From Phenylobacterium sp. (GTDB lineage: Bacteria; Pseudomonadota; Alphaproteobacteria; Caulobacterales; Caulobacteraceae), in the NCBI RefSeq assembly GCF_013911965.1, contig NZ_JACESE010000002.1, positions 1 to 64,000 on the forward strand: 64,000 nt of DNA, read 5' to 3'. How positions within the stretch are numbered: position 1 is the stretch's first letter; every line of letters begins with the position of its first letter. Below, one piece after another: positions 44,811 to 48,767 of the stretch. The position numbers were made by a program, and so were the translations under genes. Below the pieces are notes generated by a model. That model did no database searches and was not told where the DNA came from. It saw only the letters and a list, made by a program, of their open reading frames with translations.

Positions 44811-44842
44811 TCCTTTGGGTGACCCCAGAGGAGACCTCCCCC

Positions 44843-45043
44843 ATGCATAAGACGCTGATCGTCATTCCGCTCGCCGTGACCGCCCTGGCCCTGGCGGCCT
44901 GCGGCACCACCACCACCCAACGTGCGGCCACGGGCGCGCTCGGCGGCGCGGCCGTCGGCGGCGCCGTCAGCGGCGACGCCGAAGGCGCCCTGGCCGGCGC
45001 GGCCATCGGCGGCGTCGCCGGCGCGGCGACCACGCCGCGCTAA
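44843..45043 (+). CDS. Small glycine-zipper lipoprotein (OsmB-like)
   Basis: 66 residues from ATG 44843 with GAGGAGA upstream. Lipobox LAAC, Cys at about residue 20, then GxxxG repeats (ATGALGGAAVGGAVSGDAEG, AAIGGVAGA), a glycine-zipper helix pair as in OsmB/SlyB-like stress lipoproteins. An EcfG-like promoter lies directly upstream. Confidence 0.8.
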   Translation: MHKTLIVIPLAVTALALAACGTTTTQRAATGALGGAAVGGAVSGDAEGALAGAAIGGVAGAATTPR

Positions 45044-45086
45044 GGCCGAGGCGGGCCTGCGCGCCCGCCTTCCGGACGCGACAACG

Positions 45087-45122
45087 AAAAGGGGCCGGTC
45101 CCTCGCGGGACCGGCCCCTCCA
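45087..45122. terminator. Shared bidirectional terminator, stronger for the minus strand
   Basis: 12-bp perfect stem GGGGCCGGTCCC (45091-45102) / GGGACCGGCCCC (45107-45118) with a TCGC loop. Reading leftward the stem is followed by TTTTCGTTGT, a proper U tract; reading rightward only by TCCATTGT. It closes the minus-strand transcript from the short ORF and patatin gene, and more weakly the lipoprotein gene. Confidence 0.88.
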
Positions 45123-45163
45123 TTGTCGGACCGCAGCGCGGCGGCCCGCAACCTTTCGAGCGC

Positions 45164-45229
45164 TTAAGCGCGAGCCTCGAGGGAGGCCCAGGCCACGGTC
45201 ACCGACTGCGACGAATGACAATGAGACAC
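45164..45229 (-). CDS. Candidate 21-residue small protein or leader peptide with a maximal Shine-Dalgarno
   Basis: On the minus strand GAAAGGAGGTGATCC (45245-45231) is a perfect 15-base complement of the 16S rRNA 3' tail. Seven bases after GGAGG comes GTG (45229-45227), opening a frame that begins MSHCHSSQ and ends LEARA at TAA (45166-45164). A bidirectional terminator with a U tract on this strand follows 45 bases later. The frame is open upstream; an ATG at 45304 would give 46 residues but lacks a good Shine-Dalgarno and would place this one inside the gene. Unknown family, function not assignable. It lies 113 bases after the patatin gene stop and could share its message. Confidence 0.55.
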   Translation of the reverse strand: MSHCHSSQSVTVAWASLEARA

Positions 45230-45342
45230 TGGATCACCTCCTTTCAGTTGTTGAACGACAGAGCCAATATGGGTCGGGAATCCGCGGCGTGCAAACGTCG
45301 CCATGGCGCCTGCGGCGTCCTGCCCATCCGCCAGGCGCCGGC

Positions 45343-47112
45343 TCAGCGCAGACGACGGGCCGACTTCTCCGCCTGGGTCGGGCGGCGGCGCAGCTCGGTG
45401 ACGGGTTCGCTCAGACGGTCGAGCGCGGCGATCATCGCCGCATAACCCGCCGCCACGGCGGGGTCGTAGGCTTCCCAGTCGCGGATCTCGACCCCGGTCA
45501 CGTCGGGCGTCACCAGCAGATCGACCGACTCGCGCGCCGCCTGCAGGTCCCGCCCCGTCGGCACCGTGGCCGCGCGCATCAGCAGGGAGACGATCGGCGG
45601 CCCCTGGCGCCACGCCCCGGAGAAGATCCACCGCCAGACCGATTCGGGCCGCGCCACGTCCCGTGCGGTGATGCTCCGCCCGCGGGTGACGTCGACGCCC
45701 ACGACCGGCCCCAGGTGCAGGGCGCTCATCACATCGGCGGGGAAGTTGTTCAGCACCGCTCCGTCGACCAGCACCTCCTCGCCCTGCGTCGCCGGCGGCA
45801 TCACGCCGGGCAGGGCGATGGTGGCGCGCAGGGCGTCCACCAGCCGGCCGCTGCGGTGGACCTGATAGGCGCCGGTGGTGAGGTTCGACGAGACGGCGAA
45901 GAAGGGGAGCCAGAGATCGGAGATGCGCGTGTCGCCGAAGTGCTCGTAGAGGCGTTCGCGGACCTTCTCCCCGCGCGTCATGGCCAGCAGGGGGAAGGCG
46001 ATGTCGTCCAGGGGGCTGGAGGCGACGAAGGCCTCGCGGATGCGCCGGTCGGCCTCCGTGTCGGACCAGCCCATGCCCAGGCCGGCGGCCACGATCGCCC
46101 CCATGGACGACCCGCCCACGAAGTCGATCGGCACGCCCCGCTCCCTCAGGGCGCGAATGGCGCCCACATGGGCGTAGGCGCGCGCGCCGCCGCCCGAGAG
46201 GACCAGGCCGACGGAACGCCCCGTCAGCACGCGCGCCAGCCGGGCGGCGTCCTCCTCGTCGTCGCGGCGCATGTGGAAGAGCCGCGCCGGTTGGGCCGAG
46301 GCGACCCAGGCTTCGGAGTTGCGCGGCGCCACGCTCTGCCGCGGGTGCATCAGGATCAGGTCGACGAGCTGGTGGGCCTGCAACGGCTGGGCCGGGTGCA
46401 GCACGATGTTGTCGGGCGGCGGCGCCGAGACCTTGCCGATGCGGAACAGCCGGTCCACCTGGCGCGCCACCACCGCCCGCCAGCCGTGGTCTTCGCCCTC
46501 GGCGGCGTAGAGGACGAAGTCATGGGCCCGCTCGACCTCTGAATACCATTCGGTCGGCGCCATGGCCGCCTCGGCGCCGACGACCGTGACCGTATAGCCC
46601 TGGCGCATGATGTGGCGGGCGATCCGCTCGACCACCGGCCGCACGGCCACGGGCTCGCCGACCGTGACGAAGCCGTAGACCGAGGGCTCCGCGCCCGAGG
46701 TGCGCAGGGGCGTGCGCCGCGTGCGCTGGATGATCAGCTGGGCGATCTCCAGCATGACGGCCGGGTCGTCCTCGGCGGCGTCGAGGAAGAGGTCGCGGGG
46801 GAGGCCGAAGATCTCCGAGTCGCGCAGGGCGACCACGCGAGCCGTGTGCGGACCGCCCGAAAGCAGCGACATCTCTCCGGCCGGCTCGCCGGGCCGGATG
46901 ACGCCCAGGAACTCCGGCTCGTGGCCCTCTTCCCGGCGAAAGACGCCCAGGCGGCCCGCCCGAAGGAAGAAGAGCTGGTCGGCCGGGTCGCCCGGTTCGA
47001 ACAGGACGCTGCCGCCGGGCAGGGAGAACCATGCGGCGTCGCCCTCCAGCTGTTCGTGGGTGAACAGCTTGGCGAGCGCGGAGTCGATCGGAATGTCAGG
47101 CAGGCTGGCCAC
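45343..47112 (-). CDS. Patatin-like phospholipase with N-terminal cyclic-nucleotide-binding domain
   Basis: 589 residues if the start is GTG 47112 ([10 protein letters not shown]); an ATG at 47202 is open but would overlap the divergent mccB gene and has no conservation. N-terminal cNMP-binding fold (about 10-130: [40 protein letters not shown]), a middle linker domain, then patatin (about 290-470) with oxyanion [12 protein letters not shown], nucleophile [11 protein letters not shown] (GxSxG) and catalytic DGAVLNN. Resembles NTE/RssA-type lipid hydrolases. Runs against its neighbours. Confidence 0.86.
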
Positions 47113-47159
47113 GGCGACGGAGCCTAGCGCGGGGGCGCAGGGACCGCTATGCCAGGACC

Positions 47160-48767
47160 ATGACGAGGCTTTCTTCCTCCATCGACCGGCGATCCGAGGC
47201 ATTTCAGACCCAGGCGGCGCAAAATCGCGACCTGGTCGAGCAGCTTCGAAGGCGAACGGCGCAAGCCGCGCTCGGCGGCCCGGAGGCCTCGCGTCAGCGG
47301 CATGAGTCGCGGGGCAAGCTTTTGCCGCGCGATCGCGTCATGCGCCTGCTCGATCCCGGTGCGCCCTTCCTGGAGATCGGCGCCCTGGCCGCCTTCGGCC
47401 TCTATGACGACGAGGCGCCGGGCGCGGGCGTGATCGCCGGCGTCGGCCGCGTCTCCGGCCGCGAAGTCATGATCGTGGCCAACGACGCCACGGTGAAGGG
47501 CGGCGCCTACTTTCCGATGACGGTGAAGAAGCACCTGCGGGCCCAGGAGATCGCCCTGCAGAACCGTCTGCCCTGCGTCTATCTGGTGGACTCCGGCGGC
47601 GCCAACCTGCCGCATCAGGCCGAGGTCTTTCCCGACCGCGAGCACTTCGGCCGCATCTTCTTCAACCAGGCCCAGATGAGCGCGGCGGGCATCGCCCAGA
47701 TCGCCTGCGTCATGGGCTCCTGCACGGCCGGCGGGGCCTATGTGCCGGCCATGTCCGACGAGACGGTCATCGTCCGCAACCAGGGCACCATCTTCCTGGG
47801 CGGTCCGCCGCTGGTGAAGGCGGCCACCGGCGAGGTGATCAGCGCCGAGGAACTGGGCGGCGCCGACACCCACGGCCGCCGGTCCGGCGTCGTCGACCAT
47901 GTGGCGGAGAACGACGAGCATGCGCTCTCCATCGTCCGCTCGATCGTCGCCAACCTGAACACGACCAAGGCGGTGGACATCGCGCTCGCCGAGCCCAGGC
48001 CGCCGGCCTTCGACCCCGAGGAGCTCTACGGCCTGATCCCGTCGGACGTGCGGGCGCCCTATGACGTCCGCGAAGTGATCGCCCGCATCGTCGACGGCTC
48101 GGAATTCGACGAGTTTAAGGCCCTCTACGGCGCGACGCTGGTCTGCGGCTTCGCGCGCATCTGGGGCTATCCGGTGGCCATCCTGGCCAATAACGGCGTG
48201 CTCTTCTCCGAGAGCGCGCTCAAGGGCGCCCACTTCATAGAACTGGCCTGCAAGCGGCGGATTCCGCTCGTCTTCCTGCAGAACATCTCAGGCTTCATGG
48301 TGGGCGGAAAGTACGAGGCCGGGGGCATCGCCAAGGACGGCGCCAAGCTGGTGACGGCGGTGGCCTGCGCCGAGGTCCCGAAGTTCACCGTGCTGATCGG
48401 CGGCTCCTTCGGCGCCGGCAACTACGGCATGTGCGGGCGGGCCTATTCCCCCCGATTCCTGTGGACCTGGCCGAACAGCCGGATCAGCGTCATGGGCGGC
48501 GAGCAGGCGGCCAGCGTGCTCGCCACCATTCGCCGCGACGGGCTGGAGGCGCGCGGCGAGGCGTGGTCGGCGCAGGACGAGGCGGCCTTCAAGGCCCCGG
48601 TGCGGGCCCGCTACGAAGAGGAGGGCGACCCCTATTTCGCCACCGCACGCCTGTGGGATGACGGTATCATCGACCCGGCCCAGACGCGCGACGTGCTGGG
48701 ACTATCGATTTCTGCGGCGCTGAACGCGCCCGTACCGGAGACGCGGTTCGGCGTCTTCCGCATGTGA
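47160..48767 (+). CDS. mccB: Methylcrotonoyl-CoA carboxylase beta subunit (carboxyltransferase)
   Basis: 535 residues from ATG 47160. Carboxylates 3-methylcrotonyl-CoA with MccA in leucine breakdown. MCC-type markers: [51 protein letters not shown] in two parts, [57 protein letters not shown] and [18 protein letters not shown]. First gene of a tight three-gene operon; its promoter must lie in the short divergent gap with the patatin gene. Confidence 0.95.

Follow-up and report, generated by a model that had tools for sequence, protein, structure and literature searches.

A Phenylobacterium copy of the CC2171 small RNA: extended Shine-Dalgarno sequence, conserved short frame and covarying structure across Alphaproteobacteria

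Dual-function sRNAs such as SgrS/SgrT, SR1 and RNAIII are stand-alone structured RNAs that carry a short frame and a terminator and whose peptides are functional. In CC2171, the RNA treated here, the frame is conserved (102/102 and 78/80 loci in two sets), but the peptide is weakly constrained at most. The leader of duf1127-1 in S. meliloti (sORF26) offers a closer parallel, with a 29-codon frame near its 5′ end; reporter constructs indicate that this uORF acts through RNA and not through its peptide, and the authors propose that it monitors ribosome availability in cis (PMC12218461). Like CC2171, that leader puts RNA before peptide, and its ribosome-binding site pairs with early codons; unlike CC2171, it is described as acting in cis on a downstream gene and as having no intrinsic terminator, and on this last point we set the two apart as different RNAs (PMC12218461). 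A second S. meliloti RNA, rnTrpL/peTrpL, also is a small RNA with a short frame (14 aa), translated according to Ribo-seq, but that frame, as described, is leaderless, lies in the trpE leader, encodes a functional peptide and lacks an extended Shine-Dalgarno sequence (PMC10117765). In Caulobacter, two formerly predicted ncRNAs are reported to be translated (Schrader et al. 2014, PMC4117421). SisA/CrfA was also set apart, on its description as the alphaR8 family together with its sponge.

The window analyzed here is a 64,000-nt stretch of a Phenylobacterium sp. contig (NZ_JACESE010000002.1, positions 1 to 64,000). It holds a minus-strand locus (Table 1) for which a sequence-only reading had found no matching gene, a verdict overturned by Rfam: cmscan places the locus in RF01867 (CC2171) at 111.9 bits against a gathering cut-off of 75, and the alignment spans the full model (1-159 of 159), long-range helix and terminator included. 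As a full-length member above the cut-off, the locus is, by sequence and structure model, the window genome's copy of the CC2171 RNA. Among 14 named control genomes, Caulobacter vibrioides alone scores with RF01867. CC2171 reportedly goes back to Landt et al. in 2008, as a Caulobacter sRNA. The RF01867 entry likewise presents a Caulobacter sRNA, and its name and description mention no frame, extended Shine-Dalgarno sequence or class-wide spread. A search of titles and passages, which does not prove absence, yielded nothing that we recognized on the function, frame or spread of CC2171; in the passages covered, the RNA takes up one table row of the Rfam 15 paper and one row, with a single Mesorhizobium hit, of an sRNA list for Mesorhizobium huakuii. 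New here are the class-wide spread, the near-universal short frame and the covarying structure with weak peptide constraint. Two other identities were dropped: an antisense copy of a 16S gene, because Rfam found no rRNA within the window, and tmRNA, because ARAGORN gives just one tRNA-Leu there.

Table 1. Features of the CC2171 locus in the window (R1 is the RNA model described in the text)
Feature	Position	Strand	Evidence
CC2171 small RNA, Rfam RF01867	45091..45253	-	cmscan 111.9 bits, model 1-159 of 159; R1 match 45084-45251
Promoter-like pair TTTGCA (45295-45290) / CATATT (45271-45266), 18 nt apart	45266..45295	-	prediction
Conserved leader TTCAACAAC, 5′ of Shine-Dalgarno	45247..45255	-	AACAA columns 0.5-1.2 bits, 104 loci
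Extended Shine-Dalgarno	45229..45245	-	17 nt pairing with relatives' 16S 3′ end, into first base of start codon
Short ORF	45164..45229	-	GTG start, 21 codons + TAA; frame conservation
Helix P1, 5′ arm TCATTGTC (codons 2-5)	45217..45224	-	covariation; window fold
Hairpin GCCTC-CCTC-GAGGC, second half of ORF	45174..45187	-	window fold; 5′ side complements Shine-Dalgarno
Helix P1, 3′ arm GACAATGG, adjoins terminator	45120..45127	-	covariation; window fold
Intrinsic terminator	45087..45118	-	stem-loop 45118-45091, T's 45090-45087

The sequence GAAAGGAGGTGATCC occurs exactly and in single copy in the window (45245-45231, minus strand), and with up to two mismatches allowed there is still one match, against a mean of 0.14 in dinucleotide shuffles. 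The sequence-only estimate of about 1 in 10,000 for a chance match to one fixed 15-mer agrees with 128,000 positions divided by 4^15, and conservation is a stronger argument than this figure. Immediately 3′ of GAAAGGAGGTGATCC stand one A and then GTG (45229-45227, minus strand), from which the frame reads V(M)SHCHSSQSVTVAWASLEARA, 21 residues ending at TAA (45166-45164). Given the 16S 3′ end of relatives (L343, L344, L345, L347 and L350), which we take to be ...GCGGCTGGATCACCTCCTTTCTAAGG / ...GGCTGGATCACCTCCTTTCTAAGG, the complementarity amounts to 17 contiguous nucleotides, GAAAGGAGGTGATCCAG, the last of them being the first base of the GTG start. A search for 16S rRNA in the window's own draft genome (completeness 99.99) gave no match; in the same draft, the core AAGGAGGTGATCC occurs solely at the CC2171 locus. 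No part of the RNA is more conserved than the Shine-Dalgarno block, in which AGGAGGTG is invariant in 104/104 loci, an invariance partly due to selection for those loci that were found by pattern. Both this conservation and the 17-nt complementarity in the window would suit a ribosome decoy, in which over-long 16S pairing would hold 30S subunits and the short frame would just allow run-off before the terminator. However, most hits are one copy per genome, so that a decoy would need very high expression, and the covarying helix P1 would be left unexplained, which makes this an improbable account of the locus.

The stem of the terminator begins 45 nt past the stop codon and is therefore not "just after" the frame, as had been supposed. 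CC2171 is a stand-alone RNA of about 165-175 nt, with inferred ends and its own terminator. It probably has its own promoter as well, judging from the promoter-like pair in the window and from T-rich columns at promoter distance from the Shine-Dalgarno sequence, which are weak (about 0.3 bit each in 104 non-redundant loci). A 46-residue upstream extension of the frame, also put forward from the sequence, fared poorly: it would overlap the promoter-like elements, and in just 32/104 non-redundant loci does the upstream frame remain open for 120 nt. A strong Shine-Dalgarno sequence, a short frame, a helix and a terminator are the usual parts of a transcription attenuator or leader of a downstream gene, and the S. 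meliloti duf1127-1 leader does work via its uORF (PMC12218461). The next downstream frame in the window (44819-45043, plus strand) is convergent with the RNA, however, and not a regulated gene on the same strand; the S. meliloti leader is described without an intrinsic terminator (PMC12218461); and clustering of neighboring frames of at least 70 aa within flanks of 1-1.5 kb revealed no neighbor shared across the class, with 24 of the 25 largest clusters confined to the order and one holding 3 loci from elsewhere. Clustering of shorter frames produced two large mixed clusters, to which frames that overlap the RNA contribute; in every other cluster, loci from beyond the order numbered at most 5. 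An attenuator is thus very unlikely and was dropped, given the convergent neighbor and the lack of a shared downstream gene; the related suggestion of a leader peptide fails on these two points and on the intrinsic terminator, which ends the RNA. By eye, the convergent frame is small and Gly/Ala-rich, with a lipoprotein-like start (ALAAC), and the upstream frame (45343-47202, minus strand; 619 codons) shows a patatin-like motif and GGSSMG. Upstream same-strand neighbors recur inside the order.

At E ≤ 0.001, RF01867 was detected in 148/299 genomes of the order (41 above the cut-off) and in 85/385 genomes sampled class-wide (14 above the cut-off). Among 299 genomes drawn across the phylum, a sample whose share outside the class is not stated, 55 carry it, all 55 in the same class or closer. 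A pattern of Shine-Dalgarno sequence, start codon and TC is present in 97/385 class genomes, against 8 for the reversed control (counted from the list of matches), and cmscan of 20 loci, 4 of them from the order, recovered CC2171 in 19, with E < 0.001 in 16 and a score above the cut-off in 2. We also used a model, R1, built from 21 MSS-type sequences that exclude the window's family: 12 belong to the order's remaining families and 9 lie beyond the order. In the window's genome the window locus is the sole R1 match (53.8 bits; E 1.6e-19, a rough value). Across 385 alphaproteobacterial genomes, 92 carry a full-length match that starts at model position 1 and reaches 30 bits (manual count; 10 are training genomes), while the raw tally of 207/385 is inflated by matches that start at model position 21-30 and lack the Shine-Dalgarno part. 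An exact 28-base scan gave at least 119 matches, with 80 named loci among the matches listed; its carriers include Bosea, Methylobacterium, Methylorubrum, Microvirga, Brevundimonas, Roseiarcus, Hansschlegelia, Bauldia, Methyloceanibacter, Vineibacter and Rhodospirillaceae. Nearest to the window among the 80 named loci are three from Brevundimonas (L204, L274 and L212), at about 80% identity over 1.1 kb, which leads us to place the window in the family Caulobacteraceae and the order Caulobacterales. Together, the RF01867, pattern, R1 and 28-base counts indicate that the CC2171 RNA is spread class-wide, beyond the window's family, yet is undetected in most sampled genomes.

Conservation of the frame was assessed in loci of the order found via the RNA model, with no frame required. 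From the listed order matches 110 were fetched, and 8 without a Shine-Dalgarno sequence (L085, L092, L094, L099, L100, L105, L109 and L110) were discarded as false. In the 102 verified loci the start codon is ATG (48) or GTG (54), always 6 or 7 nt past GGAGG, and all 102 frames meet their first stop between codons 17 and 31, against 14 and 37 of 102 in the other frames and 165/660 at random RTGTC sites in the fetched loci. The extended Shine-Dalgarno sequence, start codon and short frame noticed from the sequence alone are hence real and conserved, and the proposed check in relatives from the order brought no refutation. Among the 80 named loci, the frame ends at codon 17-31 in 78 (18 and 19 of 80 for the other two frames), with L216 (14 codons) and L214 (33 codons) as exceptions. 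Because the search pattern holds both the Shine-Dalgarno sequence and the start, these two are conserved by selection in pattern-found loci; frame length was not preselected. In a non-redundant set the same holds for 103/109 loci (other frames, 16 and 25), a set that omits 12/83 class loci with frames of more than 40 codons or frames running off the contig; its "class" subset also omits L122, L164, L180, L182 and L192, and unfiltered, 64/83 stop at codon 17-31. Close relatives give the same picture: of 44 independent pairs, 14 have different stop codons at an unchanged position, and the 9 pairs with indels in the frame have 15 gaps whose lengths balance in threes, compared with 64 in the 3′ UTR, where some long gaps are mis-called terminators. 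By these comparisons, the short frame is under selection. They also bear on a classical base-pairing sRNA, whose frame would be untranslated in practice and whose Shine-Dalgarno sequence would be a seed against CCUCC-bearing RNAs. Rfam does class RF01867 as an sRNA, and most Caulobacter intergenic ncRNAs are reported as untranslated (PMC4117421), but nothing would make an untranslated RNA preserve an open frame, a frame length and a start spacing, and we consider this reading improbable.

Selection on the frame is met by little selection on its peptide. In codon tests, which used only pairs of equal frame length, 72/240 changes were synonymous in 36 independent pairs, where random placement would give 64.2. 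In a larger set of loci, with codons 1-5 excluded, the count was 150/462 against 125.5 expected (P 0.004), with 142, 166 and 154 changes at the three codon positions. This small synonymous excess means that some peptide constraint exists; as measured by codon changes, it appears weak at most, though not nil. The sequence-only suggestion of a highly translated small protein, with the RNA as a short mRNA and an 18-26 residue peptide as its product, thus finds weak support: the frame is kept and the peptide hardly so. Start, frame and stop are conserved, the synonymous excess is in its favor, TW..S and EV.A recur in some loci, and 56-residue frames occur at two loci, L117 and L186. Against it, changes at the second codon position (166) occur as often as those at the third (154), and MSH-type and MSS-type peptides show no resemblance beyond MS. 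Furthermore, the stretch coding for EQPL in MSS-type loci forms a hairpin, and L082, L088 and L097 read it in another frame. We therefore regard a small protein as unlikely.

Much of the frame is predicted to take part in RNA structure. Across 75 eligible loci, the best stem between the P1 arms reaches a median score of 16, whereas swapped or shuffled arms reach 13. In 27 sequences, 89.2% of P1 cells are paired, against 18.8-66.5% when the arms are slid, and 4/8 pairs have changed on both sides; for P1 plus the hairpin in the 21 MSS-type sequences, the figures are 85.4% against 35.2-54.1%, with 12/13 pairs changed on both sides. Matched arm changes include CATTTGTC/GACAAATG, CATAGT/ACTATG and CACCAAA/TTTGGTG. 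Because P1 was tested as a pre-named structure, the slide control favors it, and the double changes and the swap control are the better evidence. RNAalifold on MAFFT alignments did not propose P1. The region from start to terminator folds more stably than its shuffled versions (median z -3.2, with 30 of 36 loci below -2; 36 of 69 eligible loci were used) in comparison with an upstream control from 36 loci (median -0.06, 6/36 below -2). In the predicted window fold, nearly all of the frame past its fifth base pairs with itself or with the 3′ UTR, and the Shine-Dalgarno sequence and start sit at the foot of the resulting rod. Single-sequence predictions for 69 loci leave the Shine-Dalgarno sequence at a median of 0.51 paired and place P1 above 0.5 in just 38. 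Covariation supports a conserved structure, and comparison indicates that P1, like the Shine-Dalgarno sequence, the start and the frame length, is preserved across much of the class. Complements of the Shine-Dalgarno sequence at p ≤ 0.05 are found in the frame of 19/124 loci and in the 3′ UTR of 10/123, against 1 and 5 of 124 in scrambled controls, a modest enrichment that is no proof of a pseudoknot between the Shine-Dalgarno sequence and an internal CCTCC, which we dropped as a proven element. In L166, L337 and L338, two of them in family f27, the 3′ UTR carries a 7-9 nt Shine-Dalgarno complement, and in L166 the Shine-Dalgarno sequence is predicted to pair with it.

A frame that is nearly always kept around a peptide that hardly is suggests that the passage of ribosomes outweighs the peptide. 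A strict start, a limited frame, a near-free peptide and a covarying helix on the first codons are together what would be expected if that passage sets the state of the RNA. We infer that the frame of CC2171 is translated and that it has a function, and we favor, at slightly better than even confidence, a translated regulatory RNA that stands alone, where selection would act on the binding and passage of ribosomes, not on the peptide, and ribosome supply would set the state of the RNA. Under this proposal, 30S subunits would bind the extended Shine-Dalgarno sequence in the 5′ tail, which matches the 16S 3′ end over 15-17 nt. The start codon would lie at the foot of a long rod, in which the short ORF folds back onto the 3′ UTR; as they translate the frame, ribosomes would melt this rod, coming off ahead of the terminator, and ribosome supply would decide between an open and a closed RNA. 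The peptide would be a by-product and the RNA itself the output. Since the RNA stands alone, we conjecture that this output would be exerted in trans or through the ribosomes it occupies. CC2171 is thus perhaps a ribosome-availability sensor or titrator, and the suggestion from the sequence of an RNA that titrates or stalls ribosomes comes close to this best-supported reading. More tentatively, and with the odds against it, CC2171 could be the Caulobacter branch of an ancient RNA of the Alphaproteobacteria whose translation would serve ribosome transit; standing alone, this RNA would act in trans as a ribosome sensor or titrator, and its obligatory peptide would be meaningless. An Rfam entry for which we found no reported function would then become a widespread alphaproteobacterial RNA with one strong 30S site, a short frame and a covarying helix. 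If the reading is true, bacteria possess a stand-alone readout of ribosome supply, and selection keeps a frame open while hardly keeping its amino acids, which would blur the line between coding and non-coding RNA.

Several loci depart from the common frame. Frames of 14 codons occur in 4 loci of a 20-locus set, all of one family; these are L327-L330 (family f174, genomes of 6-9 Mb), and the end of their frame, C(H)LAxxAR, looks conserved. In L117 (near 1500, plus strand) and L186 (near 1000, minus strand), the frames of 56 codons stand behind the same extended Shine-Dalgarno sequence and have, by eye, the look of exported small proteins. The genomes of both score with R1 at those places, and the two loci are possibly unrelated genes or an extended frame. 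L042 and L057 (GTGATCTCATTGTC) have a 1-base insertion after the start, and their later frame reads as in relatives (W.S..EVR), which by eye looks like a compensated frameshift.
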